Assembly (NCBI GenBank): GCA_016841185.1 | Contig: JAENZQ010000009.1 | Location: forward strand, 1-43,209 | From: Anaerovorax odorimutans | GTDB taxonomy: Bacteria > Bacillota > Clostridia > Peptostreptococcales > JAAYPU01 | Direction: 5' to 3' | DNA length: 43,209 nucleotides | Shown: positions 7,519-39,737 of the stretch, one piece after another | Numbering within the stretch: the stretch's first letter is position 1 | Layout: each line of letters begins with the position of its first letter | The notes under the pieces: generated by a model | The model's input: the letters and a program-made list of their open reading frames with translations, nothing else | Databases searched by the model: none | Told to the model about the DNA's origin: nothing | Translations under genes and position numbers: made by a program

Positions 7519-7755
7519 ATGAACTATATAAAGTCTGTGCTGCCCATGAAGGGCTACCGGCTGTTTATGGAAATGGAGAGCGGCAGCAGTTTAATAATAG
7601 ACCTTTCGGTAAAGCTTCATGCGATGAAATACAAGGAATTGGCAGATGAAGCATTATTTAAGACTGCTTCTACCGACGGTAATTATGTCATTTGGGGCGG
7701 AGGCCGGGTACGCCTGACGGTGAACGAGCTGATGGAGGTTGCTTTGTTAGGGTAG
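7519..7755 (+). CDS. Small DUF2442-like protein
   Basis: A 78-residue protein with the layout of the DUF2442 family: an initial IKSV-P—YRLFMEMESGS strand pair, an IDLS segment, an ELADEALFKTAS region and a YVIWGGG strand. I recognise it by pattern only. Function is unknown; family members are often encoded beside DUF4160 proteins, but no such partner is seen here. GAAAGGAG lies about 11 nt before the ATG. It precedes the SLH-protein gene at 7797 by 41 bp on the same strand, so it probably leads that operon. It may be a chance neighbour without a role in surface-protein expression. Confidence 0.65.
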   Translation: MNYIKSVLPMKGYRLFMEMESGSSLIIDLSVKLHAMKYKELADEALFKTASTDGNYVIWGGGRVRLTVNELMEVALLG

Positions 7756-7796
7756 CTTCAATATTTAATTTAAAAAAAATGAAAGGAAGGAGTTTT

Positions 7797-10163: not shown

Positions 10164-10174
10164 AGGGGGATAAT

Positions 10175-13100
10175 ATGGATTTTAAAAGGAGATTTTTAAA
10201 CTTACTGCTATGTGCGGCGGCAGTAGTGGCCATGATTGCGTTTCAATCGGTTGTGGCGCAGGCAGCGGAAATATGGAACGGGGGCACAGAACAACCGGCA
10301 GGCGAAGGATTACCGACGGAACCCTATCAAATCAGTACGGCAGGGGAGCTGGCATGGTTTGCCGGTCAGGTGAACGGTGGAAACGGGGGGATTTATGCTG
10401 TTCTTACCTCAGATATTGTGCTGAATGATACATCAAACTGGCAGAACTGGGAAACGAACGCTCCGACAAACATATGGACACCTATCGGCAACAATACCAG
10501 CAAATACACAGGCAGTTTTGACGGTAACGGGTTTACGGTCAGCGGTCTTTATATCGGCGGCGGAGATAGATTAGGTTTGTTTGGGTATCTTGATGCTGAT
10601 GGGCGTATACAAAACGTAAAAGTGATTGAATCCTATGTTTGCGGTACTTTAAGGATCGGCGGCATATGTGGTCAAAATAATGGCGGGAGTATCACCGGCT
10701 GTTCCAATTACGGAACAGTTGTCGGTTCTGAAAATTTTACGGGAGGCATCTGCGGTGAGAATATTGGGACGGTTACCGGCTGTTATAATTACGGTTTGGT
10801 ACAAGGGACTCAAAGCACAGGCGGGGTATGCGGCATGACTGTAGGAGGGGGTACGGTTAGCGGCTGCGGCAATTTGGGAAGCATCACAGGTTCAAGTAAC
10901 GTGGGCGGTGTGTGCGGCAGCCTTTCAGCAAACACAGAGCCGCGGGCGAAGATACTTGACTGCTTTAACACCGGAACAGTGCAAGGGACAAAGTCAGGCG
11001 GGATCTGTGGTTGGGATATTAATGGCAATATAACCGGCTGCTATTTTCTTGATACTTCAAGCGAAAAAGGAGTAGGCGATAAATATGGTAATATGGAGGT
11101 CGATGTAAAAAGTAAAACCTCAGCTGAGTTTGCTTTAGGTGAGGTGGCGTATTTGCTTGGTCCTATGTTTGGTCAGCTTTTGTATACAGATGATGCTCCT
11201 GTAATACGTTCTTACGACGGCAGTAACACAGTTTTTAAGCTGACTTACTTGAACGGTTCAGAAGAACACGGGATACAGTATTACAACGGAGGTTGCAAGG
11301 TATCTGCCGACGGCATACCCATCCCTTCTGGTGACGGCGTCTATTTCTTGGGCTGGGAAAACCTTCCCGATACAATGCCCGACCAGGATGTAACAGTAAC
11401 AGCTGAGTTTGGACCTCCTACAATGCCCGATATTATGACAACTTCTCTGGGGAATGCACTGGTGGGCGATGAATATATTGAACGGATCCGGGTTGAGGGC
11501 TCATTACCTATTACCTATGAAGTGACTTCCGGGATTCTGCCTGCCGGTCTAAATCTGAATGAGGACAGGGGAGAAATTACCGGTACGCCTACTACAAGAG
11601 GGACCTACACATTTCATATTCAGGCAGGAAATGCTTTCGGTAATGATACACAGGAGCTAAGTATTACGGTAGATGAGGGACCTGCCGTTACAACTACATC
11701 TTTACCTTTCGGTATAGTGGGTGTGGCCTATAATGTCGGTATAGAGGCAGAGGGCACAGAGCCGTTTTCTTATACAAAGATCAGCGGAGACTTACCTGCC
11801 GGGTTGAACCTCTCAGATGAAGGCGTTATTTCGGGCACACCTGCTGCGGAGGGGATCAGCACATTTACTGTTAAGGTTGAAAACGGCTTTGGTGAAGACA
11901 CACAGGAACTGAGCATCACCATTAAAAAAGCAGAGCCTGTGATTATGACGGTATCTCTGCCTTCCGGGAGCTTGGGGACATTGTATGATGCCAAGATAGA
12001 AACAGAGGGTAAAACACCTTTTACCTTTACGGTAAGTGAAGGCAATATCCCAGCCGGACTGATTCTAAATGAGAACACCGGTGTCATCTCAGGCACACCT
12101 GCCACCGCAGGAACCGGTACGTTCACTGTCCGGGTGAGTAATGATGCCGGAGAGGATTCCAAAGAATTCAGCATTGATATCAGTGACCAGATGCTGGGCA
12201 GCGGTACCACAAATGACCCTTACAGGCTTTGTACGGCGGAACACCTGATATGGTTTGCAGAACAGGTTAACGGCGGCCTGAGCATTCACGCAATTCTTAC
12301 AGCAGACATTGCATTAAACGATACCGTCGGGTGGGAGAACTGGGCAACTATTCCTCCGCCCAATATGTGGACGCCTATGGGTACCGGACCCACTAATAGA
12401 TTTATCGGAAGTTTTGACGGAAACAATCATACCATCAGCGGTATATATATCAACAGTTCAAATGACCATCAGGGATTGTTCGGTTATATCGGTCCTAACA
12501 GCACGATTGAAAACGTTCATCTTGTGAATTCTTATATCAAAGGAAATGACTATGTGGGCGGCATATGCGGGTTTATAATGAACAGAAGTACGATTAGCAA
12601 CTGCCATAATGCGGCAACTGTCACCGGCAATGGTTATGTGGGCGGCGTGTGTGGGTATGTCATTGCAAGCAATACCATTCAGGAATGTGACAATGCCGGA
12701 ATGATTTCAGGCGCGAAGTTAACAGGAGGTATAGCCGGCTATAATTCCGGTACTGTTAATGAGTGTTATAATGAAGGGACAATCGGCAGTAATGGTAACG
12801 GCTATGGGTTTGGCGGTATAAGCGGCAGCAGTGACGGTACAATTTCAAATGTCTATAATACCGGAACCGTTTCTGCATCTGGAAACAATAATGTGGGCGG
12901 CATATGCGGGGTAAACAGTAATACAACCTCAAATGTATATAATACAGGAGAAATATCAGGCAACAACAATGTGGGGAAAGTTTGCGGATTTAACACGTCT
13001 ACAGGGACTTTAACAAATTGCTGTTTCCTCGGCTCTTCTGAAGATAAAGGAATCGGAAATAATTTAGGATCGGGAACTGCAACATATAACGCCTCAGCCC

Positions 13101-15952
13101 AATTTGCTTCAGGAGAGGCGGCGCACCTGCTGGGTGCTTCTTTCGGTCAAATGATAGGTACGGACGATACGCCGGTTTTCCGAACAACAGATGGCAGTAA
13201 TGCTGTGTATAAGCTGAGCTACATGGACGGTGAAAGAGAGCATGCGGCACAATACTATAACGGCGGTGATACCGTATCTACAGCAGGAGTCGTTCCTCCC
13301 ACCGCCGGCATATTCTTGAGATGGGAAGGGGTCCCCGACGTAATGCCGGCTAATGATGCGGTGGTAACGGCAGTCTTTGCTGTTTCGGTAGAGTTAATAT
13401 CTGCCGGTACGGACGGTATGGCAGGCACTGACACTTCAACGAAAATTGACCTTGTTTTTGATACGGCAATCACCGGACTGACCGCAGATGATATTACGAT
13501 CATAGATGGTACCGGTTCTGCAGTCAAGGGTGCGTTGACCGGCTTGGGAACAACATGGTCCATTGTACTATCATCCGTCATAAGGGAAGGAGAAGTATCT
13601 GTAGATGTATCTGCACCTGAAGGTTATACAATTACAGGTTCACCGAAGACAGTAATGGTATATAAGCAGATACCTGTGATCGATGCAGTTATTTCACCTG
13701 ATGCCGCCGACTTTGATCTTTATAACCCGGATGATGTGGAAACCACCATTACTTGGAACAGTGCCCAGTCGGTAACGGATGTGGTATACAATTCAAACAG
13801 CCTTACGGAAGATACGGATTACGCCGTAAACGACAATGTATTGTCCATTAAAAAGGAGTATCTGACAACACGCCCCACAGGCAGTCATATATTGACCATT
13901 GATTTTGACACAGGCAGTCCGGCAATGCTGACTATAAATATTACGGACAGCACACCGACAAATAATGAACCTACGCCAAAAGACCCGGTACCGGAGCAAA
14001 CGGTGAGATCCGGCAGTGCCATCAGTTTTACTGCCTCTGATATTGCGGAGGATGAAGACGGCGACAGCCTGACCATAACTGAGATACGAACGGTACCTGC
14101 CATTTCAATAGCAGGTGCAGATTTAGATAACGGAACCGTTACCGTAACAGGAAAATCAGAGGGCAGTACATCTGTAACGGTTACGGTAAGCGACGGAGAA
14201 AATATGGTGGGTGTGACGGTACCTATTACCGTAACGGCAAATGATATAGCCGTGACAGGTGTAACCCTTGACAAGGATACCCTGAGTCTGACGGAAGGAA
14301 CAAGGGGACAGCTGACGGCGACCGTAGTGCCTGCTGATGCGACAAACAAGAATGTAACATGGAACAGTGATGATACAAAAATTGCAACAGTCGATGGTGC
14401 AGGTAAGGTAACGGCGGTTTCGGAAGGAACAGTTACTATTACGGTTACCACAGCAGATGGAGGATATTTTGATACCTGTACGGTAACGGTAACCAAAGAA
14501 TCGGTATTGACCTATGCTTTAATAATAAATGCAGATACAGGCGGCAGCATTACTGCAGGCAGCAGCGGAGACTATGCAGCAGGAACGGTTATTAATATTT
14601 CTGCAGAAGCTTCCTCCGATTACAGCTTCAATAAATGGACCTCGAGCGGAAGCGGATTCTTCGGTAATGAGAGCAGTGCAACGACTACCTTCACCATGCC
14701 GGCAGAAACAGTGACCATTACAGCTACCTTCACCTATAACGGTTCTGATGGCAGTCATCACAGAAGGAGAAAGAACGTTTCCACGAAAGACTATAAAGCA
14801 ACTGTATCGGGAACCGGTAAAACAAATACCAGCTTGGCTGTTGAAGTCAGCGATGATGACAGCCGTGCGAAGGTAGATGCAAAAACGATATTTGATGAAA
14901 TGGTTAATGGAGCAACACCTGTGATTGACATACCGGATATTCCGGGAGTAAGTGCCTATACCGTGGAAATGCCTTCAACTTCCCTGACCGGCAAACAAAA
15001 GAACATGTTAACGGTATCTACAAAGTTGGGCAGTATGAGCTTGCCGGCCAATATGCTTGCAGGGATGCCGGAGGCAGAGGGAACAGCGGATATTACCATC
15101 GGAGAAGGAGACAAATCTAATCTGCCCGATGAAGTAATGGAAGCCATCGGCGACAGGCCATTGGTTCAGCTTACTCTGACCATAGACGGAGAACAGACAG
15201 ATTGGAACAACCCTGATGCACCTGTTACCGTCTCTATACCTTACACGCCGACAGCAGAAGAACTTGAAGACCCTGAACATATCACCGTATGGTATATTGA
15301 CGGAGCAGGCAATGTGGCGGAAGTACCTTCCGGAAGATACGACCCTGAAACAGGCATGGTGACATTCACGACTACACACTTCAGCCATTATGCTGTGGCC
15401 TATGTGAAAAAGACCTTTGATGATCTTGACAGCGTACCATGGGCAAAAGACCAGATTGAAGTACTCGCATCCAAAGGCATATTGAAGGGAATAACGGAGA
15501 ATCAGTATTCCCCTCAAACAGATATTACCCGGGCAGATTTCCTGTATTTCCTTGTGAGGACTTTAGATGTCAAAGCAACAATAGATGAAAACTTTCAAGA
15601 TATAGACAGCAGAGGCTATTACTATGAAGAAATCGCCATTGCAAAAGAACTGGGCATTACCAAGGGTGTCGGAAATAACAGATTTAATCCCGATGCAAAC
15701 ATCACAAGACAAGACATGATGGTTCTGACGGAAAGAGCATTAAGAATGTTGAAAATGATAGAAGTGCAAGGGGCAGCTTCAGACCTTAAAGCATTCTCGG
15801 ATAAATCCCTGATTGCTTCCTATGCAGTAGAAAGCACGGCAGCCCTTGTGGAAGACGGTTTGATAATCGGCAGCGGAGACAGGATTGATCCGTTGGGCAA
15901 CACCACCAGAGCAGAAGCGGCAGTGTTTTTGTACAGGATCTACAATAAGTAA
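10175..15952 (+). CDS. Giant mosaic SLH surface protein (GLUG, He_PIG, X2, BIG2, InlB-like, 3 x SLH)
   Basis: A 1925-residue exported protein. The order is: signal peptide (1-31, ends VAQAA); GLUG block 1 (35-355); InlB-B-like module (355-412, YLNGSEEHGIQYYNGG); three putative-Ig He_PIG repeats (417-500, 501-588, 589-670, each with LP(A)GL-L and ISGTP); GLUG block 2 (672-982); second InlB-like module (1008-1072); Ig-like (1072-1165); X2-type Ig module (1166-1258); Ig-like (1262-1356); BIG2 (1359-1444, ATNKNVTWNSDD); divergent InlB-like repeat (1446-1523); a basic HHRRRK linker; a 200-residue pre-SLH module (1536-1744); and three SLH domains (1745-1925, with TRADF, TRQDM, TRAEA). It should be a long cell-wall-bound stalk, probably adhesive or part of the S-layer; no enzyme domain is visible. 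AAGGGGG precedes the ATG, 11 bp after the previous stop. GC content appears higher than in the 0-7 kb region. Confidence 0.9.
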   Translation: MDFKRRFLNLLLCAAAVVAMIAFQSVVAQAAEIWNGGTEQPAGEGLPTEPYQISTAGELAWFAGQVNGGNGGIYAVLTSDIVLNDTSNWQNWETNAPTNIWTPIGNNTSKYTGSFDGNGFTVSGLYIGGGDRLGLFGYLDADGRIQNVKVIESYVCGTLRIGGICGQNNGGSITGCSNYGTVVGSENFTGGICGENIGTVTGCYNYGLVQGTQSTGGVCGMTVGGGTVSGCGNLGSITGSSNVGGVCGSLSANTEPRAKILDCFNTGTVQGTKSGGICGWDINGNITGCYFLDTSSEKGVGDKYGNMEVDVKSKTSAEFALGEVAYLLGPMFGQLLYTDDAPVIRSYDGSNTVFKLTYLNGSEEHGIQYYNGGCKVSADGIPIPSGDGVYFLGWENLPDTMPDQDVTVTAEFGPPTMPDIMTTSLGNALVGDEYIERIRVEGSLPITYEVTSGILPAGLNLNEDRGEITGTPTTRGTYTFHIQAGNAFGNDTQELSITVDEGPAVTTTSLPFGIVGVAYNVGIEAEGTEPFSYTKISGDLPAGLNLSDEGVISGTPAAEGISTFTVKVENGFGEDTQELSITIKKAEPVIMTVSLPSGSLGTLYDAKIETEGKTPFTFTVSEGNIPAGLILNENTGVISGTPATAGTGTFTVRVSNDAGEDSKEFSIDISDQMLGSGTTNDPYRLCTAEHLIWFAEQVNGGLSIHAILTADIALNDTVGWENWATIPPPNMWTPMGTGPTNRFIGSFDGNNHTISGIYINSSNDHQGLFGYIGPNSTIENVHLVNSYIKGNDYVGGICGFIMNRSTISNCHNAATVTGNGYVGGVCGYVIASNTIQECDNAGMISGAKLTGGIAGYNSGTVNECYNEGTIGSNGNGYGFGGISGSSDGTISNVYNTGTVSASGNNNVGGICGVNSNTTSNVYNTGEISGNNNVGKVCGFNTSTGTLTNCCFLGSSEDKGIGNNLGSGTATYNASAQFASGEAAHLLGASFGQMIGTDDTPVFRTTDGSNAVYKLSYMDGEREHAAQYYNGGDTVSTAGVVPPTAGIFLRWEGVPDVMPANDAVVTAVFAVSVELISAGTDGMAGTDTSTKIDLVFDTAITGLTADDITIIDGTGSAVKGALTGLGTTWSIVLSSVIREGEVSVDVSAPEGYTITGSPKTVMVYKQIPVIDAVISPDAADFDLYNPDDVETTITWNSAQSVTDVVYNSNSLTEDTDYAVNDNVLSIKKEYLTTRPTGSHILTIDFDTGSPAMLTINITDSTPTNNEPTPKDPVPEQTVRSGSAISFTASDIAEDEDGDSLTITEIRTVPAISIAGADLDNGTVTVTGKSEGSTSVTVTVSDGENMVGVTVPITVTANDIAVTGVTLDKDTLSLTEGTRGQLTATVVPADATNKNVTWNSDDTKIATVDGAGKVTAVSEGTVTITVTTADGGYFDTCTVTVTKESVLTYALIINADTGGSITAGSSGDYAAGTVINISAEASSDYSFNKWTSSGSGFFGNESSATTTFTMPAETVTITATFTYNGSDGSHHRRRKNVSTKDYKATVSGTGKTNTSLAVEVSDDDSRAKVDAKTIFDEMVNGATPVIDIPDIPGVSAYTVEMPSTSLTGKQKNMLTVSTKLGSMSLPANMLAGMPEAEGTADITIGEGDKSNLPDEVMEAIGDRPLVQLTLTIDGEQTDWNNPDAPVTVSIPYTPTAEELEDPEHITVWYIDGAGNVAEVPSGRYDPETGMVTFTTTHFSHYAVAYVKKTFDDLDSVPWAKDQIEVLASKGILKGITENQYSPQTDITRADFLYFLVRTLDVKATIDENFQDIDSRGYYYEEIAIAKELGITKGVGNNRFNPDANITRQDMMVLTERALRMLKMIEVQGAASDLKAFSDKSLIASYAVESTAALVEDGLIIGSGDRIDPLGNTTRAEAAVFLYRIYNK

Positions 15953-15960
15953 AGGGAATG

Positions 15961-16038
15961 GGGACGGTGACTTTTTGCACACATTGCAAAGCGGGTTATG
16001 TGCGAAAAGTCACCGTCCCTAATTACCGTCCCTAATTA
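15961..16038. repeat. REP-like GGGACGGT palindrome with short direct repeat
   Basis: A GGGACGGTGACTTTT…-type arm (15961-15982) pairs with 15998-16019; 20 of 22 positions match, and one of the two differences is a G-U wobble. The sequence CCGTCCCTAATTA is then repeated in tandem (16013-16025, 16026-16038). It begins 9 nt after the stop of the giant SLH gene and can also fold as its transcript end. From memory, intergenic palindromes with this GGGACGGT terminus are scattered in many Clostridia; mobility through a REP-associated transposase is inference, and none is encoded here. Confidence 0.7.
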
Positions 16039-16111
16039 TACCCGTTCCCGCCAACGAATAGAAAGTCAGATAAGAAATTAAAATCCGTTAGGCCTGGAAT
16101 CAGAAAAATAT

Positions 16112-16162
16112 AACAGATAGCCATGGTGTGTAGAAATACATCAAAGCGCTATCTGTTTTTTG
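16112..16162 (+). terminator. Intrinsic terminator in the long gap before the PHP protein gene
   Basis: AACAGATAGC (16112-16121) pairs with GCTATCTGTT (16148-16157), followed by T residues. An inner TGTA-GAAA-TACA hairpin caps the structure. It probably ends the 7519-15952 operon. Another terminator at 39236 begins with the same AACAGATAGCC string. Confidence 0.7.
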
Positions 16163-16465
16163 TGATGGGAAAGGATATTTCTTACATATTAACATACAAA
16201 AAGAGTAATAATAATGCAGTTTCTTTTTATAATTTACAAAAATTGACTGACACTTATGGCTGCATCTGTAAAATGGTGGATAATTTAAGAAAAAAGGACA
16301 AGAATTTAGATTTAAATTATTAATAGTGACAACATGCTTCAGCAAATTATTTCTATTCAGTTTGTAATAATAAGATGTAAATAGTTGAATCCGTCAATCA
16401 AAAAGTGGAGGCGATGAGTATCTGGTACAATTGGACGCTTATTCCGGATAATGAGCCAATAGCGT
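16163..16465. other. Gap without a supportable gene
   Basis: This stretch between two terminators is AT-rich. A 66-codon open frame (16123-16323) overlaps the preceding terminator and has no ribosome site. A 17-codon frame at 16414-16467 (two Trp codons) has GGAGG only 2 nt before its ATG. I call neither a gene. No riboswitch pattern that I know is visible. Confidence 0.5.
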
Positions 16466-16492
16466 AACCGACCATATTGCAGGTCGGTTTTT
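16466..16492 (+). terminator. Small hairpin plus T-run upstream of the PHP protein gene
   Basis: AACCGACC (16466-16473) pairs with GGTCGGTT (16482-16489), and Ts run on to 16491. It lies 66 bp before the next start codon. It may end a short upstream transcript or act as a leader attenuator for the PHP protein gene. Confidence 0.6.
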
Positions 16493-16557
16493 GTATGCAG
16501 AAATAGTATCGGTTTTGATGTGGGATTCATTATTAAAAAAGATGAAGGAGGTTAAAA

Positions 16558-19500
16558 ATGATTCTAAAACGAAAGAATAAGTTTATAGCATTTATTATAA
16601 TAGCTTTGATGGCCCTTTCGATATGGCCAAGTAATGTATTTGCAACAGACAGTTTAAGCGGTTCTAATATAAAAGGAAAAGAGGAAATTGTTACTTTTTA
16701 TATTGGACAGGAATACTACAAGAAAGGAAGCATTATTGTAGAAACAGATGTAGCACCATATATTAAAGATGATAGGACAATGCTGCCGATTGCGTTTATA
16801 GCTTCAGCCTTAGGAACAGATGAAGTTATTTGGGTTCCTGAAAGTCAAACTGTAAAAATCATAAAAGGTGATGACTTAATTGAGACTAAAATTGGCAGCA
16901 AAAAATTAATAGTTAACGAAAAGATACTAATGATGGATACAGCTGCTGAGATTAAAGACATTGAGGGCGGTGGCGGACGTACTATGTTGCCAATCGCTTT
17001 TATCGCCAGAGCACTGAATGTAGGCTATCGATGGGACGGGGAAACGAGAAGTGTGGATTTTTACGGTTACACAGAAATTTTTGGAGAAAAGGGGACCTAT
17101 GGACCGAAAACAGACTCTGAAACCATAGTAGGAAATGTAGTAATAACTGCAGGCAAAGTAAACTTAAGAAATTTAGTCATTAAAGGAAACTTGATTATAG
17201 CTGAAGCTGTAGGAGATGAAGATGTCTATCTGAAGAATATTGTTGTTGAAGGAAATACATATATTCGGGGTGGCGGCAATGACAGCATTCATATCGACGG
17301 CGGATCTTTCAATGGAGATATAATTATCGAAAACACGTCTCAAGGGGGTATTCGGGTAGTAGCAAATGATGTGGATGGAGTAAGCATTATTATTGCTACG
17401 GATGTTGATGACGAAGTGATTTTGAAAGGGACTTTTGGCAATGTAGAAATATTAGCTGCAAATGCTGTGGTATCTATTCATAGTCAAACAACAATTGAAA
17501 ATATGATTGTTAATGATACAGCTGAGATTACTCTTGCTGCGACAACCATTGTTAAGAAAACGACATTTAACGCTCAGACAACAGTAAAAGCATATGGAAG
17601 GATGAAAGCGATATATGTTAATTCTAACAATGTAAAAATTTACACGAATACACCGCCTGAAATACATGAGGTTTCACCCGGTAAAAAACCTGCAAATATA
17701 ATAGAATTCTCGAGAAAAACAAGAAGAAGATCGAAAGAAATAGAAGCCACCGGTATCACTGTTTCACCCACAAGTATGATCTTAGTAGCCGGCGGAGATA
17801 CAGGAACTATTACTGCATCGGTAAGCCCCAAAAACGCATCTAACAAGAATGTGACATGGAGTTCTAGCGATCCAATGATTGCGACAGTTGATAATGGAAC
17901 TGTAACGCCTGTTAGAACAGGATCGGCCATTATTACGGCAGCTTTAACTTCAAATAGAACATATTCGGCAATTTGTGCCGTTACGGTGATTCCACCGAGT
18001 ACGATTCCGGATCGAATGAATTTAACTTTGATAGGAGAAGGAATAACCGCAGACCCTGGAGCCGGAGTGCTTCAAAAGAACACGGAAGTAACAATAACGG
18101 TAACTGCACCGATAGGCATGCGGGTTGCGACTTTTATAGTAAATGGAGTGAACAAGAAGGCAGACTTGGAGGCAAATCCGTCAGGCAAATATATTTTCAA
18201 TATAACTGAGGACACAACTGTGGAGGTAACATATGAAGCAACGCCGTCGGTACCCACAAACTTAGTACTGTGGCTTGATGCAACCGATTACAGTGAAAGT
18301 ACCGGTATATGGCCGGATAAAAGCGGCAAAGGCAATAGCGTAACTCAGGATAGTTCTTCCAGCCGGCCCGATTATATTGCAAACGGACTGAACGGAAACC
18401 CGGTGGTGCAGTTTGACGGAAGTGACGACTACCTGAATCTGGATTGGGCAGATGGTTCTTTGGATACGGATTCACTTACCATGTTCCTTGTTTTGAAAAA
18501 CAACGACATGAGCGGAGGCTCTCAGACGATTATGGGCAACTATGATCAGGAGGACGAAGTGGCTATTCACAAGAGCGGGTCATCTCCATATCCTATTACA
18601 GCCGGCATTTCAACACCTTTCAGAGATAACAGGATTGCATTTACCAGTGATCCGGGGCCTTATGTACTGACATATGAATATGACAACGATTCAACCGCAC
18701 ACACAACCTTTGTTGACGGTATTCAGGCCAATACGCTAAACAAGAGTGCCGACATCAGCTGGAATGATACTGCCATAGGACGAAATGGAGGACCGACAGG
18801 TTCCCACATATCCGAATGGAACTGGAATGGCGACATTGCAGAGATACGAATTTACAACGATGCGCTTACTGCAACAGAGCGTCAGGCGGTTGAACAAGAG
18901 CTGAATGATAAATGGTTAGTGGGAGAAAAGTATACTGTTACCTTTACGAATCCGGCAAATGGCAGTTTGAGCGCTGTGGTAGACGGTGTTGCCATAAGTA
19001 ACGGTGCTAAAGTAGCAGAAGGCAATGACGTTGCATTTACTGTAATACCCGATACGGGGTATCAAGTGAAGCAGTGGACAGTTAACGGATCAGTTGTACC
19101 GGGGAAAACAGGTTTGACTTATATATATGAGGACCTAAGCGGGGATGTTACGGTAGAGGTAACCCTGGAAGCAACGCCGTCGGTACCCACAAACTTAGTA
19201 CTGTGGCTTGATGCAACCGATTACAGTGAAAGTACCGGTATATGGCCGGATAAAAGCGGCAAAGGCAATAGCGTAACTCAGGATAGTTCTTCCAGCCGGC
19301 CCGATTATATTGCAAACGGACTGAACGGAAACCCGGTGGTGCAGTTTGACGGAAGTGACGACTACCTGAATCTGGATTGGGCAGATGGTTCTTTGGATAC
19401 GGATTCACTTACCATGTTCCTTGTTTTGAAAAACAACGACATGAGCGGAGGCTCTCAGACGATTATGGGCAACTATGATCAGGAGGACGAAGTGGCTATT

Positions 19501-20829
19501 CACAAGAGCGGGTCATCTCCATATCCTATTACAGCCGGCATTTCAACACCTTTCAGAGATAACAGGATTGCATTTACCAGTGATCCGGGGCCTTATGTAC
19601 TGACATATGAATATGACAACGATTCAACCGCACACACAACCTTTGTTGACGGTATTCAGGCCAATACGCTAAACAAGAGTGCCGACATCAGCTGGAATGA
19701 TACTGCCATAGGACGAAATGGAGGACCGACAGGTTCCCACATATCCGAATGGAACTGGAATGGCGACATTGCAGAGATACGAATTTACAACGATGCGCTT
19801 ACTGCAACAGAGCGTCAGGCGGTTGAACAAGAGCTGAATGATAAATGGTTAGTGGGAGAACCTGGTGATTATAGCATCCTATATAATCCTTATGCAGATG
19901 TAGAGTGGGATACAGTAAATCATTACAAAGCCAATCTCCATACCCACACTGACGAAAGCGATGGTTCTTTATCTCCGGATGAAGTAATCGATGCATATCA
20001 TGATGCAGGTTATAAAATCTTAGCGCTGACAGACCATGACACTATGGGAGGGGCGGATACCACATGGCCTTGGACAGATTGGAACAGAGACCCGGAGGAT
20101 TTGGGAATGTTAGCTGTTCAGGGTAATGAAATTTCCGGCACAGATCATATTAACAGCTTCTTCAACGATTACGGGGGTGCAAGCTATGGTCAGGAAGAAC
20201 AGGTATTACAGCAAATACAGAGCAGAAACGGTATGGCGATGATCAATCATCCGGGGAGATATTTCAGGTCTGATACATGGTATAAAGAACTGTATGAAAC
20301 CTATTATCAACAGCCGTTGATTGGAATGGAAGTGCATAACCAAGGCGACAGGTATCCAAGTGACAGGGATTTGTGGGACAGAATCAATGCCCTTGTTATG
20401 CCGGAGGTTATGATATTTGGCCTCAGCAATGACGATATGCACCAAAGCAGTCATTTATTTAGGAACTATCAATTTATGCTCATGGACGAATTAACGGAGG
20501 AAAAACTCAGGGATTCTTTAATTGAAGGATCGTATTACTTTTGTTATGAATCAGGAGGCAGCGGGGATGTTAATCCTCCGGTTCCACGGATTAATGGAAT
20601 TGAAATAACAGACAATGGGACAGTAATTACTATTGAAGCAAGCAATATAAATATCAATAATTCAGGGCATACAATAACATGGAAAACAAATAATGGTGTA
20701 GTAGGAACCGGATATTCATTTGATATTGACGATCTTAGCTCGGGAAGTATTTTCCTCAGGGCCGAACTTGTTAACGGATCCGGAAAAACCTACACACAAC
20801 CTTTTGTTCTTAAGGATGAAAGGCGGTAA
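16558..20829 (+). CDS. Secreted PHP-family metal-dependent phosphoesterase with beta-helix and twin LamG-like domains
   Basis: A 1423-residue exported protein. The order is: signal peptide (1-30); two copper-amine-oxidase-N-like stalk units (42-172, each with RTMLPIAFIA); a beta-helix-like region (173-375); BIG2 (395-480); InlB-like repeat (485-560); LamG-like domain 1 (562-790, VLWLDATDYSES); a second InlB-like repeat (791-871); an identical LamG-like domain 2 (873-1101); a PHP phosphoesterase domain (1115-1338); and a C-terminal Ig-like domain. The PHP metal ligands are present: His1128 and His1130 (NLHTHT), His1160 and Asp1161 (LTDHD), Glu1191, His1231 (NHPGR), and Asp1292 and His1295 (NDDMH). 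It should hydrolyse a phosphate ester outside the cell. No SLH domain is present, so anchoring must come from the stalk or carbohydrate-binding domains. GAAGGAGG precedes the ATG. Confidence 0.88.
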   Translation: MILKRKNKFIAFIIIALMALSIWPSNVFATDSLSGSNIKGKEEIVTFYIGQEYYKKGSIIVETDVAPYIKDDRTMLPIAFIASALGTDEVIWVPESQTVKIIKGDDLIETKIGSKKLIVNEKILMMDTAAEIKDIEGGGGRTMLPIAFIARALNVGYRWDGETRSVDFYGYTEIFGEKGTYGPKTDSETIVGNVVITAGKVNLRNLVIKGNLIIAEAVGDEDVYLKNIVVEGNTYIRGGGNDSIHIDGGSFNGDIIIENTSQGGIRVVANDVDGVSIIIATDVDDEVILKGTFGNVEILAANAVVSIHSQTTIENMIVNDTAEITLAATTIVKKTTFNAQTTVKAYGRMKAIYVNSNNVKIYTNTPPEIHEVSPGKKPANIIEFSRKTRRRSKEIEATGITVSPTSMILVAGGDTGTITASVSPKNASNKNVTWSSSDPMIATVDNGTVTPVRTGSAIITAALTSNRTYSAICAVTVIPPSTIPDRMNLTLIGEGITADPGAGVLQKNTEVTITVTAPIGMRVATFIVNGVNKKADLEANPSGKYIFNITEDTTVEVTYEATPSVPTNLVLWLDATDYSESTGIWPDKSGKGNSVTQDSSSSRPDYIANGLNGNPVVQFDGSDDYLNLDWADGSLDTDSLTMFLVLKNNDMSGGSQTIMGNYDQEDEVAIHKSGSSPYPITAGISTPFRDNRIAFTSDPGPYVLTYEYDNDSTAHTTFVDGIQANTLNKSADISWNDTAIGRNGGPTGSHISEWNWNGDIAEIRIYNDALTATERQAVEQELNDKWLVGEKYTVTFTNPANGSLSAVVDGVAISNGAKVAEGNDVAFTVIPDTGYQVKQWTVNGSVVPGKTGLTYIYEDLSGDVTVEVTLEATPSVPTNLVLWLDATDYSESTGIWPDKSGKGNSVTQDSSSSRPDYIANGLNGNPVVQFDGSDDYLNLDWADGSLDTDSLTMFLVLKNNDMSGGSQTIMGNYDQEDEVAIHKSGSSPYPITAGISTPFRDNRIAFTSDPGPYVLTYEYDNDSTAHTTFVDGIQANTLNKSADISWNDTAIGRNGGPTGSHISEWNWNGDIAEIRIYNDALTATERQAVEQELNDKWLVGEPGDYSILYNPYADVEWDTVNHYKANLHTHTDESDGSLSPDEVIDAYHDAGYKILALTDHDTMGGADTTWPWTDWNRDPEDLGMLAVQGNEISGTDHINSFFNDYGGASYGQEEQVLQQIQSRNGMAMINHPGRYFRSDTWYKELYETYYQQPLIGMEVHNQGDRYPSDRDLWDRINALVMPEVMIFGLSNDDMHQSSHLFRNYQFMLMDELTEEKLRDSLIEGSYYFCYESGGSGDVNPPVPRINGIEITDNGTVITIEASNININNSGHTITWKTNNGVVGTGYSFDIDDLSSGSIFLRAELVNGSGKTYTQPFVLKDERR
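18235..18927 (+). repeat. LamG-like domain repeat, copy 1 (693 bp)
   Basis: It encodes one LamG-like domain plus its lead-in. Copy 2 lies 933 bp downstream at 19168-19860 and appears identical at every base I compared. The 933-bp offset is a multiple of three, so recombination would delete one domain in frame. Confidence 0.9.
19168..19860 (+). repeat. LamG-like domain repeat, copy 2 (693 bp)
   Basis: This is the second copy of the unit at 18235-18927. The 240 bp between copies encode an InlB-like repeat that resembles, but does not equal, the one before copy 1. The duplication therefore involved a two-domain unit, with only the LamG part kept or converted to identity. Confidence 0.9.
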
Positions 20830-21056
20830 TGTTAACGTACCCTTACTTTATTTCACCAATTAGAAAAGAGGCAGCCGATGTTAATGCGCACAATGAAGAA
20901 GAACAAATAATGCTAAAACACCCAATTGAAGAGAAGTGGGCAGTGCGCATTTTGCCCGGTAATAAATATGCATATGCAAAACTTCGGGGCGCTGTGGCGG
21001 ATATTTTGCCTGATGATTGGTGTGATAGAGTACTTAATGAGAACCAAAACAAATAG
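20829..21056 (+). CDS. Small uncharacterised protein, start overlaps upstream stop
   Basis: A 75-codon frame whose ATG overlaps the last base of the PHP gene stop (TAATG), an arrangement typical of translational coupling. An AAAGGCGG stretch lies 2-3 nt before the ATG, closer than ideal. The product is soluble-looking, with no signal peptide or membrane segment; its C-terminal half (WAVRILPGNKYAYAKLRGAV) looks like a folded beta/alpha segment. I do not recognise the family. A clear terminator follows at 21091. It could instead be a remnant. Confidence 0.4.
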   Translation: MLTYPYFISPIRKEAADVNAHNEEEQIMLKHPIEEKWAVRILPGNKYAYAKLRGAVADILPDDWCDRVLNENQNK

Positions 21057-21090
21057 TATGGCTTGAAAATGGTATGAAAAACAAAAAAAG

Positions 21091-21123
21091 TTCGGTGATA
21101 TTAAATACATCACCGAATTTTTA
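21091..21123 (+). terminator. Intrinsic terminator after the PHP protein operon
   Basis: TTCGGTGAT (21091-21099) pairs with ATCACCGAA (21109-21117), followed by TTTTT. It separates the PHP unit from the LuxR regulator. Confidence 0.85.
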
Positions 21124-21278
21124 TTAAGATACTTTGTAAAAAAAGTTTTCTTAATTAGTCTTCTAAATTATTCTAAAATCCATTTTGTTGCATATTTTTA
21201 CAAATACTATTAAAATATAATTGACTATAATTTACCAATCGGTTAATACTATGATGAATAAAATCAGGAGAAAACAAT

Positions 21279-23756
21279 ATGAAGGGGCAAAAACCTGATA
21301 AAACGGAGTTGCGCTATTATTCAGAACGGCTTAAACGAAAGTTGCATGAACTTTGTTTTATATCCACAACGATTATTGAAGCACCTTCCGGTTATGGTAA
21401 GACTACGGCAGTAAAGGATTTTTTAGAAACGGAAATACCTAAAATCACACCTGTTCATTGGTTTACTGCTGTAGATGAAGCCCCTACCGCAAGCTTCGGG
21501 CGTCTCTGTCGTGAAATTGATAAGATAGACAGATCAGCAGGAGAACGGCTCTTAAAAATTGGGCTGCCGAATGCTGCCACCATGGGTGAGGCCTGTGACA
21601 CTTTAAGGACCATTCAATGCAAACAGGAAACCTACTTTGTGATAGATAACTTTCAGTTTTTACAAGTATTCCTGACATCTTCTTTTTTTACAGCTCTTAT
21701 TGACCATGGAGGAGAGGCGTTGCATATCGTTATTATTACGCAGATGTTGGAACGGAATATGCATGCTGCTGCTGCGAGTCGTTGTTTTTTGCATATTACA
21801 GCTTCGGATCTTCGGTTGGAAACAGAAGACATTAGCCGATATTATGCTCTTGAGGATGTGAATATTACGCATGAAGAAGCCCAATATGTTGAAAACAGTA
21901 CAGAGGGTTGGATTATTGCAGTATATTTACAGCTCACAGCTTTTAAGGAAACAGGTGCTTTTTCTGATAATACCATTTTATCGCTTATGGAACATTTAGT
22001 ATGGGATACGCTGACAAATGAACAGAAAATCTTTCTTATGCGTCTGTCGCTGTTTGAAACCATTACTTTACAGCAAGCATGTATCCTTATTAAAAGTGAA
22101 ACGCTTCCTGTTTATGCGCAGGAAGCTCTGGATATTCCGTTTATTCAATATGAAAGAGCTGGACAGCAATACGAGTTGCATAGTATTTTATCAGAGCTGC
22201 TTAAGCAGAAACGGGGTGATCAGGGAGCGGTTTTTGAACAAGAATGTATATTACAGGCTGGAGATTTATGTCGGGATGAAGGCAGGATAGCAGAGGCCTT
22301 GGGCTTTTATTGGCAGGTAAAAGACTATGAAAGTATGCTTTCTATTGATTTTTCCTGCTTAATTTTAGAAGAAATCAGAAATACGCCTTTCTCAATAATT
22401 GCATTGGATATTGCACAAAACTGTTCGGCTGACATAAAAAAGGTATATCCTCTTTCCATGTTGCGGATTGCATGGACATTGCTTACCTTTGGATTTTATG
22501 CGGCGTTTGATGAAATAATGGATGAACTGGGAATAATGCTTGATTCAGAAGAAAGAGAGGATGCTTCTCTTTTGCGTGGCGAGTGGCTGCTGCTGTCTTC
22601 ATTTAAAAGCTATCCTAAGACAGTAGAAATGACGGCTATTCTTGAAAAGGCTGCTGAGCTTTTTAAAGGTCAATGCTCAAAGGTGATTCTCCATGACTCA
22701 CCGTGGTGGTTTGGCAGTTGCGCTCCATTAACGGATTTTCATATGACTCCCGGAGAGGCTGAAAAAGAAGCGGATGATCTTGAAAAGTATGTGGCACTTT
22801 TTTCAAACCTGACCAATGGGCAAGGCAGCGGAGCAGATGCGTTGTATCGTGCGGTATTGGCTTATCACAAAGGAAATATCAACGAAGCGGAGGCCTTTGC
22901 ATATAAGGCTACATATCTTGCTGAAAGCAAGAAACAAAGCATTATACAGTTAGGTGCCACTTTGCAGCTTGCCCAAGTGGCACTTCACAAGGCGGACACA
23001 GAAGGGTGGCAGCACGCTATAAATTCCATGGAGCGTGCTGTTTCTTATCCAATGCAGAATTCCTTTGCGGTTCGTTCGGCATTGGATATCATGCGCGGCA
23101 TGCTTCTTGTAGAGCTGCAGCAATTGGATGAGATTGCTGAGTGGTTGAAAAATGGTGATTTTTCGAGTAAAAGGCTTCTGCAGCCGATGTTGCCTCTTGC
23201 CTTGTTTGTACATACACTTTTCTTATTGCACCGGGGAGAAGTTTCACGAATGATTGGTATTATAGAGGCAAACCTATCAAAACAATCGATGAATACACCT
23301 GTTAATAACATGCTTCTTACACTTAATTTGGCAGTCGGTTATTTAAATATAAAAAACCATGATAAAGCTGTTGCACTTGTAAAAAATACAGCTCAAAGTG
23401 TTATGCCTGACGGCATGGTCTTTACATTTGCTTCTTTTTCATGGTTGCTTCAGGGGCTGACGGATGAAATTATTGAGCAGGAATATCCTGAGCTTTTTAA
23501 TACTTTTAAAGGGATAAAAGAGCGTTTTAGTTCAGGATGGAGAAAACTGCATAAAGATATTTCTCCTGAGGAGCTGCCTTCAGATCTGACGGAGCGTGAG
23601 CGCGAAGTGGCAATGCTTGCTGCAGGCGGTTTACGCAACGTCGAAATAGCTGAAAAACTGTTTATAAGCGAAAGCACGGTCCGTACCCATATGCGCACCA
23701 TATTTAGAAAACTGGACATTGACCGCCGTGTGAAGCTTGCAGAAAAATTGAAATAA
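21279..23756 (+). CDS. MalT-type large ATP-binding LuxR (LAL) transcriptional activator
   Basis: An 825-residue STAND-class regulator. A P-loop at residues 35-43 (APSGYGKTT, Lys41) and a Walker B strand (YFVIDNF, Asp124) form the ATPase. A long helical TPR-like sensor region follows (about 330-740). A C-terminal LuxR helix-turn-helix (764-825, LTEREREVAMLAAGGLRNVE then ISESTVRTHM) binds DNA. Such proteins switch on target genes when a small inducer and ATP allow oligomerisation. Length fits the family (800-950). AGGAG is 8-9 nt before the ATG. The next gene, a small membrane protein, starts 14 bp after the stop, so they are co-transcribed. The flanking surface-protein genes are likely but unproven targets. 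Confidence 0.9.
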   Translation: MKGQKPDKTELRYYSERLKRKLHELCFISTTIIEAPSGYGKTTAVKDFLETEIPKITPVHWFTAVDEAPTASFGRLCREIDKIDRSAGERLLKIGLPNAATMGEACDTLRTIQCKQETYFVIDNFQFLQVFLTSSFFTALIDHGGEALHIVIITQMLERNMHAAAASRCFLHITASDLRLETEDISRYYALEDVNITHEEAQYVENSTEGWIIAVYLQLTAFKETGAFSDNTILSLMEHLVWDTLTNEQKIFLMRLSLFETITLQQACILIKSETLPVYAQEALDIPFIQYERAGQQYELHSILSELLKQKRGDQGAVFEQECILQAGDLCRDEGRIAEALGFYWQVKDYESMLSIDFSCLILEEIRNTPFSIIALDIAQNCSADIKKVYPLSMLRIAWTLLTFGFYAAFDEIMDELGIMLDSEEREDASLLRGEWLLLSSFKSYPKTVEMTAILEKAAELFKGQCSKVILHDSPWWFGSCAPLTDFHMTPGEAEKEADDLEKYVALFSNLTNGQGSGADALYRAVLAYHKGNINEAEAFAYKATYLAESKKQSIIQLGATLQLAQVALHKADTEGWQHAINSMERAVSYPMQNSFAVRSALDIMRGMLLVELQQLDEIAEWLKNGDFSSKRLLQPMLPLALFVHTLFLLHRGEVSRMIGIIEANLSKQSMNTPVNNMLLTLNLAVGYLNIKNHDKAVALVKNTAQSVMPDGMVFTFASFSWLLQGLTDEIIEQEYPELFNTFKGIKERFSSGWRKLHKDISPEELPSDLTEREREVAMLAAGGLRNVEIAEKLFISESTVRTHMRTIFRKLDIDRRVKLAEKLK

Positions 23757-24297: not shown

Positions 24298-25014
24298 ATG
24301 AACCTCTACAAAGTTGCGGTGTGTGATGATAATGCTCAAGAATTAAATAATTTGTCTCATATGATAAGTTCTATACTGGATGAAAAGGCTGCCGATTACG
24401 AGATAAGCAGGTTTATATCGGGAGAGGGTGCTGTAAATGCCATCGTCAATCAAAATAGAAATTATGACATCCTTTTCCTTGATATTTTAATGGATAAATT
24501 GGATGGGATCATGACGGCAAGGAAAATAAGAGAAGAAGATGATGATGTCAGTATCGTTTTTATCACCGGGTCCCCTAATTTTGTATTTGAAGGGTATGAT
24601 GTACAGGCTTTACACTATATTTTAAAGCCTATTGATAAAGAGAAACTTTCAGAGATTCTCATTTATGACTGGAGCAAAAGAAATCAAAAAAATTATATGG
24701 ATGTAAAGCTTAAACACTCTGTTGTCCGTATTTTGTTTGATGAAACAATATATTTGGAATCCAAAGGCAGAAGAGTAAGAATCATTACTACTGATAAAGA
24801 ATATGAAACATACGGGACACTGACACAGTTTAATGAAACCCTTCCTTCAGAGCAGTTTATTTCCTGTCACAAAAGTTTTGTAGTCAACTTGAATTATGTT
24901 TCGAAGATTTCAAGAACATATTTCACCACTGCCTGTAATAAAATAATCCCTATCAGCAAAGCCCGATATCCGGATTCAAAAAAAGCCTTTATCAATTTTA
25001 TCGGGAAAGGGTGA
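24298..25014 (+). CDS. LytTR-family response regulator (AgrA/LytR type)
   Basis: 238 residues. The receiver domain (4-120) has acidic pair Asp10-Asp11, phospho-acceptor Asp62 (LFLDILMD), the FITG threonine and the YILKPID lysine, all intact. The LytTR DNA-binding domain (about 133-236) shows YLESKGRRVRI and FISCHKSFVVNLNYV. Such regulators bind paired direct repeats upstream of virulence, bacteriocin or cell-surface genes. CGGAGAG precedes the ATG. A histidine kinase gene faces it tail-to-tail with only 13 bp between stops and is its probable partner, an unusual layout because partners are normally co-directional. Confidence 0.9.
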   Translation: MNLYKVAVCDDNAQELNNLSHMISSILDEKAADYEISRFISGEGAVNAIVNQNRNYDILFLDILMDKLDGIMTARKIREEDDDVSIVFITGSPNFVFEGYDVQALHYILKPIDKEKLSEILIYDWSKRNQKNYMDVKLKHSVVRILFDETIYLESKGRRVRIITTDKEYETYGTLTQFNETLPSEQFISCHKSFVVNLNYVSKISRTYFTTACNKIIPISKARYPDSKKAFINFIGKG

Positions 25015-25027
25015 TGTTCCGATTCTA

Positions 25028-26836
25028 CTATGCTTTAAGCGCCAGCTTTATCATAAACCAGTTTTTATCATATTCGATATCCAATACGCCGTTGTATTTT
25101 TCTACAATTCTTTGGACAATACCCAGACCCAGACCGCGTTTCATATCATCTGTTTTTGTTGAAATATATTTATCATTTTCTTTGACAACAGTATTTTCTT
25201 TGCTGTTCTTGCACATAACATGCATGAATCCATTTTTCATGTTGCAGGCAAACTCAATATTTCTATTATCCATGTCTACCATAGCTGTACAGGCTTCTAT
25301 TGCATTGCCTGTTATATTGATAAACAGACTGTAAAAGTCACTGTCACTCATTTTTATATTTTCAGGAAGATTGAGGGTATAAGTAAAATCGATATTATTC
25401 TTTTCTGATTCTCTTACTACATATCCCATTATATAGTTGAGAAGCTGATTATTCGTATAGATGATCTGCTTGGACACAGGATAATTTTTTGTGAGCTGAG
25501 ACAGATATTCTTTTGCTCTGGTTAGATTTCCTTGATCCATCAAATGATTAAGAGCATTAAAATGGTGATGGATATCATGATTCAGTGCATGGGCTTCTTC
25601 CGTATATTGTTTTATATCGTCAAAATGTTCAAGAGCCAGCCGGCTTTTTATTTGAGAAGACTGAAGGTCCGCAAGGATCTGAGCGTTTTTCTTGAAATAA
25701 GAATTGATCCTGCCTATTACTTCGATGGTAATGAATATTATCAACCCAATCTTTGAAAACATTTCAATATCACTTAAGTGCAGCGGATTGCCGAACATGC
25801 TGTTGAGCCTGCCTGCCAATGTCATAACTATCAATATGAACCCGGCCCATTTTAATCTTTCATATTTTTTCCTGCCATGGCGTATTTCTATGATAAAAGC
25901 TGCTATAGTCAAAATGTAATAGATTGCTATAAGGTATACGAAGACAGCTAAAACCTCTGTTGGAGGATCATTCATAAACAGTTGCATTAATGCTGTAGGT
26001 AAAAATCCGGCAATATGAATGCAAAGAGCAATTATAACAGGAATTTTGAATCTTTCACAGGAGGAATATGCAAATAACAAAACTGCGCATGGTATAAAGA
26101 AATTTACAAGCATGATGAGAAAAGCTGCTTGAGCAGGATTCAACAGCATTAAAAGCAAAAAGCTTTTTCCGGGAATAAACAGCCCGACTAAAATCACAAA
26201 AATGCCAAACCACAGATCGGCTGAAGAGGTTTCATCCTCTTCTTTACGATGCGTTAAAAAAACAAATAGCAAAGCAGTGCCCAGAAGAAATACAAATATT
26301 GCTGCAGCAAAAACGGGAATAGATTTTCCGACAGCATAAGCCATAAGGGATGCTGCATTACCTATATAAATGCGATAGGCACGCAGGTTCATGGTAGGGG
26401 TCAGCGTTAGGGTGAGTTTTTTTCCGGCATAGTCATCAGGTAAAGGTATTATAGCCAGTTTTTTTCCGGGGGAGGCAATAGATGATTGACTATAACCATA
26501 TCGATATATTTCTTTTCCGTTTAATTCGGCAATAATCTTCATATAATCTGATCGGAACATGATGGCAGCATCTTTTCCCCTGTCTTCAAGGGTGTGGGAG
26601 AGATACCAGTTTTCATTGAGATATATGCCTTTGGTACCGCTGGGCAGACATACCGGTTTTGGTTCTGGGTCGAGGCCGGTATGGTACTGCCACTTGTCCG
26701 ATATATCCGTGACGTTTTGGGACATATATGGGTAAGCGGATATATGTATGGAAAGGATTAAAAACAAAATAACGGAAAGCAGAAACAAAACCGCTGGTAT
26801 GAAAGCCGCCGGTTTTATTTTTTTGTTTTGAAACAT
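25028..26836 (-). CDS. 7TM sensor histidine kinase, GHKL/AgrC-like
   Basis: 602 residues. An N-terminal membrane anchor (11-31) leads into an extracellular jelly-roll-like sensor (about 45-165, IYLNENWYLSHTL and LNGKEIYRYG). Seven membrane helices span about 171-376. A coiled linker and a dimerisation/phosphotransfer helix (ALNHDIHHHFNALNHL, likely phospho-His420) follow, and then a GHKL ATPase domain (N-box FINITGNAIEAC near 510, G-box GLGLGIV). The layout is that of 7TMR-DISM receptors joined to an AgrC-like kinase, which pair with LytTR regulators; the regulator at 24298 is the natural partner. The ATG at 26836 has a weak GGCGGTGAG ribosome site. A strong promoter lies at 26875-26903. Confidence 0.88.
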   Translation of the reverse strand: MFQNKKIKPAAFIPAVLFLLSVILFLILSIHISAYPYMSQNVTDISDKWQYHTGLDPEPKPVCLPSGTKGIYLNENWYLSHTLEDRGKDAAIMFRSDYMKIIAELNGKEIYRYGYSQSSIASPGKKLAIIPLPDDYAGKKLTLTLTPTMNLRAYRIYIGNAASLMAYAVGKSIPVFAAAIFVFLLGTALLFVFLTHRKEEDETSSADLWFGIFVILVGLFIPGKSFLLLMLLNPAQAAFLIMLVNFFIPCAVLLFAYSSCERFKIPVIIALCIHIAGFLPTALMQLFMNDPPTEVLAVFVYLIAIYYILTIAAFIIEIRHGRKKYERLKWAGFILIVMTLAGRLNSMFGNPLHLSDIEMFSKIGLIIFITIEVIGRINSYFKKNAQILADLQSSQIKSRLALEHFDDIKQYTEEAHALNHDIHHHFNALNHLMDQGNLTRAKEYLSQLTKNYPVSKQIIYTNNQLLNYIMGYVVRESEKNNIDFTYTLNLPENIKMSDSDFYSLFINITGNAIEACTAMVDMDNRNIEFACNMKNGFMHVMCKNSKENTVVKENDKYISTKTDDMKRGLGLGIVQRIVEKYNGVLDIEYDKNWFMIKLALKA

Positions 26837-31359: not shown

Positions 31360-31371
31360 TCGGATTTGTAG

Positions 31372-31392
31372 GGACAGCCCTTGCGGCTGTCC
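31372..31392 (+). terminator. GC-rich hairpin after the SLH gene
   Basis: GGACAGCC (31372-31379) pairs with GGCTGTCC (31385-31392) around CTTGC, 13 nt after the stop. There is no T-run, so it may be a dispersed repeat or a message-stabilising element, not a classical terminator. It has the look of the GTAGGGGC…-type palindromes found between genes in Clostridia (recollection). Confidence 0.5.
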
Positions 31393-31481
31393 GAGAGAAG
31401 TGAAAGTGCAATGGCGAGTATAGGGTTGATTAGGAAAAAGATAAGAGGTAAGAGATAATAATAAGGAGGGATATATTTATT

Positions 31482-39338: not shown

Positions 39339-39737
39339 GTGAAGGTTTATATACTTGATAGCGGAGGTTCCGGTCTTGATAAAATCGTTACCTGGTTGTC
39401 TGAGGACATCGATATAAAAGAAATATCTGTTATAAACAGAGCAGATGAATTTCTAAAAAAGGTGAAAAACGAGCATCCTGAACTGGTTTTCATACGACTG
39501 GGAAATGACGATATACCGGGGCTTAAGACAGGCCGGATGGTGAAGGATGTAAAATCGGGTATCCGAATCGTTTTTGTTTCCGAAGAGAACGACCATGCAT
39601 TAGATGCATACGAAGTAGGGGCTAACGGATACCTCCTGTGTCCTATTGAAAAAAAGAAATTTGATAGTATCCTCTCGAAAGCAAAACAGGAGACTTATTG
39701 TAACAATGGAAGTATGAAAGGAGATGCGAAATGGTAA
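39339..39737 (+). CDS. Degenerate (pseudo-) receiver-domain protein
   Basis: 132 residues, a stand-alone receiver fold. Aligned by eye with the regulator at 38120, the phospho-acceptor Asp54 position is Arg53 (VFIRLGNDD), the conserved YILKP lysine is Cys101 (YLLCP), and the N-terminal acidic pair is reduced to Asp7-Ser8. The hydrophobic pattern and the DHALDAYEVGA helix are kept, so it should fold but not be phosphorylated in the usual way. The start is GTG 39339, with GGAGG 7 nt upstream. No output domain is present. Its stop overlaps the start of the next giant surface gene by 7 nt, an unusual coupling of a signalling-type protein to an exported adhesin. A role as a protein-protein adaptor or anti-regulator is a guess. 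Confidence 0.8.
   Translation: MKVYILDSGGSGLDKIVTWLSEDIDIKEISVINRADEFLKKVKNEHPELVFIRLGNDDIPGLKTGRMVKDVKSGIRIVFVSEENDHALDAYEVGANGYLLCPIEKKKFDSILSKAKQETYCNNGSMKGDAKW

Follow-up and report, generated by a model that had tools for sequence, protein, structure and literature searches.

In the 43,209-nucleotide contig JAENZQ010000009.1 of Anaerovorax odorimutans (assembly GCA_016841185.1; this whole stretch is called the window here), the open reading frame (ORF) at 16558–20829 on the forward strand encodes a protein of 1,423 residues that ends in a PHP domain. On balance, we regard its product as a Sec-exported, wall-displayed PHP metallo-hydrolase, most likely a phosphoesterase acting on extracellular polymers or nucleotides. 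The frame was intact, with an ATG at 16558, a stop codon ending at 20829 and a good ribosome-binding site (AAGGAGG, 16545–16551) upstream of the start. The modules were arranged in the order of signal peptide, Cu_amine_oxidN1, CBM54-like beta-helix, Big_2, LamG, InlB-type repeat, LamG, PHP and C-terminal beta domain. A preliminary description of this DNA had given exactly the same frame and length and had read the product as exported, built of many modules and closed by a PHP domain; the Pfam domains, the AlphaFold model and the homology to CBM54 agreed with this. Its interpretation held for the export, the apparently complete metal site and the stalk, and was corrected for the rarity that it implied and for two ligand positions. 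The assignment of the first domain to Cu_amine_oxidN1 and the identity of the LamG copies at the DNA level were absent from it.

Fold and metal-ligand positions of the PHP domain

Pfam PHP (PF02811) matched from residue 1127 with 29.3 bits, above the cut-off of 26.4. The structure prediction proposed in the preliminary description, run with AlphaFold on residues 1103–1423, yielded a PHP fold (mean predicted local distance difference test score (pLDDT) 95.1; predicted template modelling score 0.93). The best solved fold matches were all PHP proteins, namely 3e38_A (Z 21.8, root-mean-square deviation (rmsd) 2.8, 213 residues aligned) and 2anu_B (Z 21.7, rmsd 2.4, 195 aligned), and with these scores the model showed the distorted barrel of solved PHP proteins. 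They were followed by 3o0f (Z 16.9, rmsd 3.0, 179 aligned), EndoQ 7k30_A (Z 16.8, rmsd 2.9, 202 aligned) and RNase AM (Z 15.3), and the VIA and Foldseek lists leave room for other families. The closest solved fold, BVU_3505 of Bacteroides vulgatus (PDB 3e38), is named as a two-domain PHP-like phosphoesterase in which PHP is followed by a second domain; it was 20% identical to the window protein, and the aligned range ended at residue 271 of the 321 in the model. No paper naming BVU_3505 was found in the open-licence literature.

Nine canonical ligand positions of a putative trinuclear site (H1128, H1130, D1135, H1160, E1191, H1197, H1231, D1293, and H1295) were set by aligning the domain with 2anu and RNase AM, the register partly following the numbering of 2yb1. 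They were compared in 77 rows, consisting of the window protein and 76 of the best 80 related loci (L034, L049, L060, and L068 were left out as short or carrying an internal stop). E1191, H1231, D1293, and H1295 were invariant; H1160 was kept in 76 rows, H1130 in 75 and H1128 in 74, the last two with two gaps each. H1197 was H in 70 rows and D in seven, and D1135 was D in 69. Six of the eight ligands listed earlier (H1128, H1130, H1160, E1191, H1231, and H1295) were retained, and D1135 and H1197 were missing from that list. Its D1161 is unlikely to bind metal, because 41 of the 77 rows had D at this position and 28 had N. Its D1292 should be D1293, the Asp of the last DxH motif, whose counterpart in the alignment with 2anu is the SD.H aspartate. 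D1292 was itself invariant (77/77) and takes the place of S in the usual SD.H motif; therefore DDxH marks the exported PHP clade.

In the C-terminal beta domain, W1375 and R1401 were also invariant in all 77 rows, as was E1258, which suggests that this domain belongs to the enzyme core, where it would probably help to shape the pocket. The trinuclear site itself would activate water for attack on an ester, most likely a phosphoester. With four ligands invariant, the others nearly so, and this conservation extending to minimal enzymes of ~300 residues to which only a signal peptide is added, a PHP domain with little or no catalytic activity that acts as a structural or adhesive part of a surface protein seems very improbable, although the architecture is multi-modular and adhesin-like and the genome encodes many surface proteins (66 SLH matches). 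PHP domains without activity do occur in some DNA polymerases.

The exported PHP clade

At least 596 stretches in genome_contigs matched the search pattern, of which at least 559 were confirmed as relatives, and the best 80 were analyzed. None of the 97 other genomes of the same order contained a relative at 1e-10, and eight of the 397 other genomes of the phylum did so at 1e-12; the phylum-labelled rows of the clade spanned 18 phyla, archaea included. The window protein carried the clade motifs NPY...QYKANLHTHT, DDxH and C-terminal TQPF, and in a rapid tree built from 86 rows it grouped with L020, from a metagenome-assembled genome (MAG) of Tepidanaerobacter, and L011, with a support of 97 in the Shimodaira–Hasegawa-like approximate likelihood ratio test (SH-aLRT).

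A crude hydropathy test detected a hydrophobic N-terminal stretch in 67 of the 77 relatives tested, against 147 of 376 neighboring ORFs; the other three of the 80 loci had an open N-terminus and were skipped. Among the ten misses (L020, L039, L048, L060, L066, L074, L076, L078, L094, and L098), a scaffold gap interrupted L020, and no ATG was present in L094 or L098. From the control of seven PHP loci of the same genome, only two were returned (L004, 1.24; L007, 1.56). Many clade members were minimal, with ~300 residues made up of a signal or lipoprotein-like start and the PHP unit. The rarity of extracellular PHP domains that had been implied was not borne out by these numbers, nor by the secreted and SLH-anchored PHP proteins already in print, because of which an exported PHP protein is a variation on a known theme.

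Two such proteins were compared by description, as far as the available parts of the sources describe them. Sb-PDE of Sphingobium sp. TCM1 is secreted, and both phosphodiesterase and phosphomonoesterase activities were measured for it (PMC5460133). Like the window protein it has a signal peptide and a PHP domain; however, it comprises 441 residues, with no stalk or lectin modules in that description. Pjdr2_1611 of Paenibacillus sp. JDR-2 is an SLH-anchored PHP protein of the form CCT/PHP/BIG3/3SLH (PMC4765114). It is likewise a surface protein with PHP and Ig-like domains, but it ends in three SLH domains, and its modules and their order are different. Php1 of Porphyromonas gingivalis was rejected as a secreted precedent, since in the part of the paper available it is Ltp1, not Php1, that is secreted (PMC8172045). 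Cthe_2654, a "PHP domain protein," was listed beside polysaccharide-synthesis genes in the accessible text and was not relevant. The open-licence literature offered nothing that paired a PHP domain with LamG or the S-layer, and nothing relevant on a pairing with dockerin.

The nearest relative in architecture was L020 (Tepidanaerobacter sp. DTU063 MAG). From the stalk to the C-terminus the two proteins were collinear, with PHP domains 63–65% identical, but the front of L020 consisted of three SLH domains, the strict processing motif of the stalk was absent, and the gene crossed the scaffold gap.

A phage or plasmid origin was considered and rejected: one phage record (a 43-residue match), four plasmid records at 1e-8, mostly haloarchaeal, and 28 at 1e-3 made no case for it. 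Separately, Foldseek matched the PHP fold across most of a predicted 393-residue Siphoviridae protein (BFVD A0A8S5S364; E 2.3e-12).

Family scores, domain partners and candidate substrates

The best whole-domain NCBIfam row was RNase RNM (3.6e-17), with the 3′,5′-nucleoside bisphosphate phosphatase close behind. RNase AM and this phosphatase are cytoplasmic enzymes. They (7ug9, 9etk, and 2yb1) resemble the window protein in the PHP fold and in the TDH and HPGRY motifs, the latter common to the PHP domain, RNase AM and 2yb1, but differ by an insertion between the motifs. A nucleotide or nucleic-acid scavenger, that is, an extracellular 3′,5′-bisphosphatase or an RNase AM-like 5′–3′ exonuclease feeding on outside DNA or RNA, would agree with these matches and with the fold rows of RNase AM and EndoQ. 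Nevertheless, we consider it quite unlikely, as the domain scored far below the equivalog cut-offs (62.5 bits against 375 for NF047791, RNase AM / RNase RNM; 55.2 against 400 for NF041577, the bisphosphatase) and matched in two stretches only. Fold likeness shows no function, and the stalk and LamG modules suggest contact with glycan rather than nucleic acid.

The flanks of the PHP unit were scanned in 58 pieces, 19 N-terminal (at least 110 residues) and 39 C-terminal (at least 40 residues), excluding pieces with X. They contained Esterase (10), Por_Secre_tail (10), Dockerin_1 (7), Metallophos (3), Pur_ac_phosph_N (2), Cohesin (2), and SLH (1). In L079 and L095, a purple-acid-phosphatase-like N-terminal half and the PHP unit shared one chain; L079 ended in three SLH domains, and the end of L095 had a dockerin match slightly below the cut-off. 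In L010, Cu_amine_oxidN1 directly preceded PHP. The esterase fusions (L028, L030, L031, L033, L045, L046, L047, L050, L051, and L059) were proteins of ~1,100 residues from gut Bacteroidota, composed of a putative esterase half (PF00756), the PHP unit and a tail of the type IX secretion system (T9SS) type. Such partners appear to fit the use of extracellular polymers or phosphate, and the esterase fusions would also be compatible with acyl esters.

The main competing explanation is a CehA/McbA-type metallo-hydrolase that cuts carboxyl or carbamate esters, such as acyl groups on extracellular polysaccharides. NF038032 (CehA/McbA) matched 71 of the 77 clade members at E ≤0.001 (best 2.7e-20), ten Bacteroidota relatives carry the putative esterase in the same chain, and the contexts with dockerin and CBM modules suggest a part in degrading polysaccharides. 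The window protein, however, stayed under the cut-off of 80 bits (58.4 for the whole protein, 62.4 for the domain), the nucleoside-bisphosphatase and RNase AM models also matched 73 and 64 of the 77 members, and two fusions involve purple-acid-phosphatase-like domains, so that we consider such an enzyme unlikely. Phosphoester chemistry is preferred because of the superfamily membership, the precedent of Sb-PDE, the motifs resembling those of RNase AM, and the fusions of two relatives with a phosphatase-like domain.

In the gene neighborhoods, 132 adjacent ORFs were picked and 127 scanned, five long ones being dropped (one each from L020, L030, L041, L060, and L092); no PHP ORF was called at L024 or L054. 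A phytase gene followed L040, and GDPD was present in two of 61 neighbors. Pfam-less neighbors of 380–420 residues were considered as a recurring family and rejected, as only those of L027, L044, and L064 clustered. Teichoic acid, extracellular DNA and glycans, which the preliminary description had offered as candidate substrates, gained no clear support from these neighborhoods.

Several observations weigh against a wall-displayed phosphoesterase. No enzyme assay for the exported PHP clade was found in the literature consulted. Some relatives have other residues in place of D1135 and H1197, and CehA/McbA, by its name the nearest NCBIfam domain model and one called after carbamate hydrolases, scored about the same as RNase AM (62.4 and 62.5 bits). 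The ten esterase fusions, which form one homologous set, pair PHP with a putative esterase instead of a phosphatase. There was no conserved neighborhood, since no family reached more than five loci when the 353 ORFs located within three genes were clustered, and most neighbors were unrelated to phosphate. The closest relative, L020, has a stalk that departs from the strict CBM54 processing motif.

Mostly exported PHP hydrolases occur on cell walls and together with dockerins and T9SS tails, and their substrate would name a missing step either in phosphate scavenging or in the breakdown of phosphorylated or esterified polymers.

Stalk, surface modules and putative wall anchor

The coordinates of the modules are listed in Table 1.

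Table 1. Modules of the PHP protein in the window
Feature	Residues	Position	Strand	Basis
Signal peptide	1–29	16558..16644	+	By eye, predicted cut after VFA; best 11-residue hydropathy 3.25
Cu_amine_oxidN1	61–166	16738..17055	+	Pfam 6.3e-26; own-genome comparison
CBM54-like right-handed beta-helix stalk	~174–395	17077..17742	+	phmmer to 5gzt_A; collinear with L020
Processing motif GGGNDSIH	238–245	17269..17292	+	Matches published CBM54 motif; predicted cut between D242 and S243
Big_2 Ig-like domain	397–462	17746..17943	+	Pfam 6.5e-11
First LamG unit		18235..18927	+	Pfam Laminin_G_3 at 620–774; 693 nucleotides identical to second
InlB-type repeat (Flg_new_2)	792–849	18931..19104	+	Pfam 3.6e-05
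Second LamG unit		19168..19860	+	DNA identical to first
PHP metallo-hydrolase domain	1103–1340	19864..20577	+	Pfam, AlphaFold, fold matches, conservation
C-terminal beta domain	1341–1423	20578..20826	+	Model, alignment; Ig-like rows at Z 6–7 only

What is new here, judged by sequence, is a CBM54-like stalk with the published processing motif on a PHP protein. Residues 175–241 were homologous to the CBM54 of the chitinase ChiW of Paenibacillus FPU-7, in its N-terminal chain (5gzt_A, phmmer E 6.7e-14). Pfam called no beta-helix in the PHP protein. The model of the stalk was all-beta and weak (mean pLDDT 55.4, with blocks at 63–92 and residues 1–148 of the modelled piece below 50), and Foldseek with it gave no row at E ≤0.001, the top row being 5gzt_A at E 0.065. 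In the part of the source available, the CBM54 of ChiW folds as a right-handed beta-helix, binds to insoluble polysaccharides and undergoes cleavage between Asn282 and Ser283, the motif is given as GGG-X1-[NQDH]-S-[VI]-[HKLNYV], and Lic16A is cut at Asp-Ser (PMC5132251). ChiW shares with the window protein the CBM54 beta-helix with its processing motif, an Ig-like domain and display on the wall, the last predicted for the window protein; it differs in its GH18 chitinase catalytic domains and in having three SLH domains where the window protein has Cu_amine_oxidN1.

The motif occurred once in 470,922 ORF residues, and shuffling the PHP protein 20,000 times produced it in 20 cases. The conserved N355–S356 was rejected as the cut site, because the alignment to 5gzt_A places it between D242 and S243. 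There the stalk probably nicks itself, with the pieces staying together, as in ChiW and Lic16A, and it would bind insoluble polysaccharide; this cleavage could be tested in one experiment. Four further CBM54 stalks were found in the same genome (G000 C64:741-1883, C65:21806-22861, C78:54017-54877, and C78:97937-98839; L103–L106). All of them carry GGGx[DHN]S[IV], and in two the last residue (R or I) was outside the published list.

The preliminary description had placed lectin-like modules next to the stalk, which agreed with the Pfam matches, and the homology to CBM54 makes the stalk one of the polysaccharide-binding kind. Laminin_G_3 was matched in two stretches (2.6e-09). The two LamG units had zero mismatches over 693 nucleotides at an offset of 933, and two copies were present in the genome; this identity may reflect a recent duplication, an assembly artefact, or homogenization by gene conversion. 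In the nearest relatives, the LamG regions matched the two units at 39–47%. The Ig-like, InlB-type and LamG modules may form a region for reach and glycan contact, and CBM54 together with LamG would bring the hydrolase to its polymer.

The N-terminus, MILKRKNKFIAFIIIALMALSIWPSNVFA, was recognized by eye as a signal peptide and would direct Sec export to the cell surface. The next domain, Cu_amine_oxidN1, sits where the four other CBM54 proteins of the genome have three SLH matches each, ending 28 to 46 nucleotides before the stalk match, and the PHP protein is the only one of the five with this arrangement. Cu_amine_oxidN1 was matched 16 times in the genome, never on an ORF that also had an SLH match as judged by contig and ORF length, and lay near the N- or C-terminus wherever this was seen (11 of the 16 loci resolved). 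Because of its place and its separation from SLH, we infer that the domain is probably an alternative, SLH-independent wall anchor that holds the protein at the wall. The comparison gives a testable claim on a domain whose name tells nothing of a role in surface proteins.

A wider reading is offered tentatively, as less probable than not: the exported PHP clade may be an unrecognized family whose members act outside the cell as phosphoesterases and remove phosphate-linked groups from surface or plant polymers, here mounted on a self-nicking CBM54 stalk with Cu_amine_oxidN1 as the SLH-independent anchor.

Around the gene (15900–21300), predicted promoters (17 vs. 16.2 expected) and terminators (5 vs. 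3.7) were at chance level, and the Rfam scan of the window gave no match. An inverted repeat, GGGACGGTGACTTTT, was located at 15961–16019, 3′ of the upstream gene. It had eight exact matches in the genome, four per strand, and three pairs of these were equally spaced (control 0). A cluster of giant surface proteins surrounded the PHP gene, encoded at 7692–15952, 27052–34559, and 39731–43207, with GLUG, SLH, CBM_X2, LRR_5, beta-helix, and beta-propeller modules. Regulators adjoined these surface genes at 21279–23756, 24298–26836, and 36268–39220; their types were a MalT-like LuxR protein, a LytTR/GHKL pair, and a histidine kinase with a BTAD-type response regulator.

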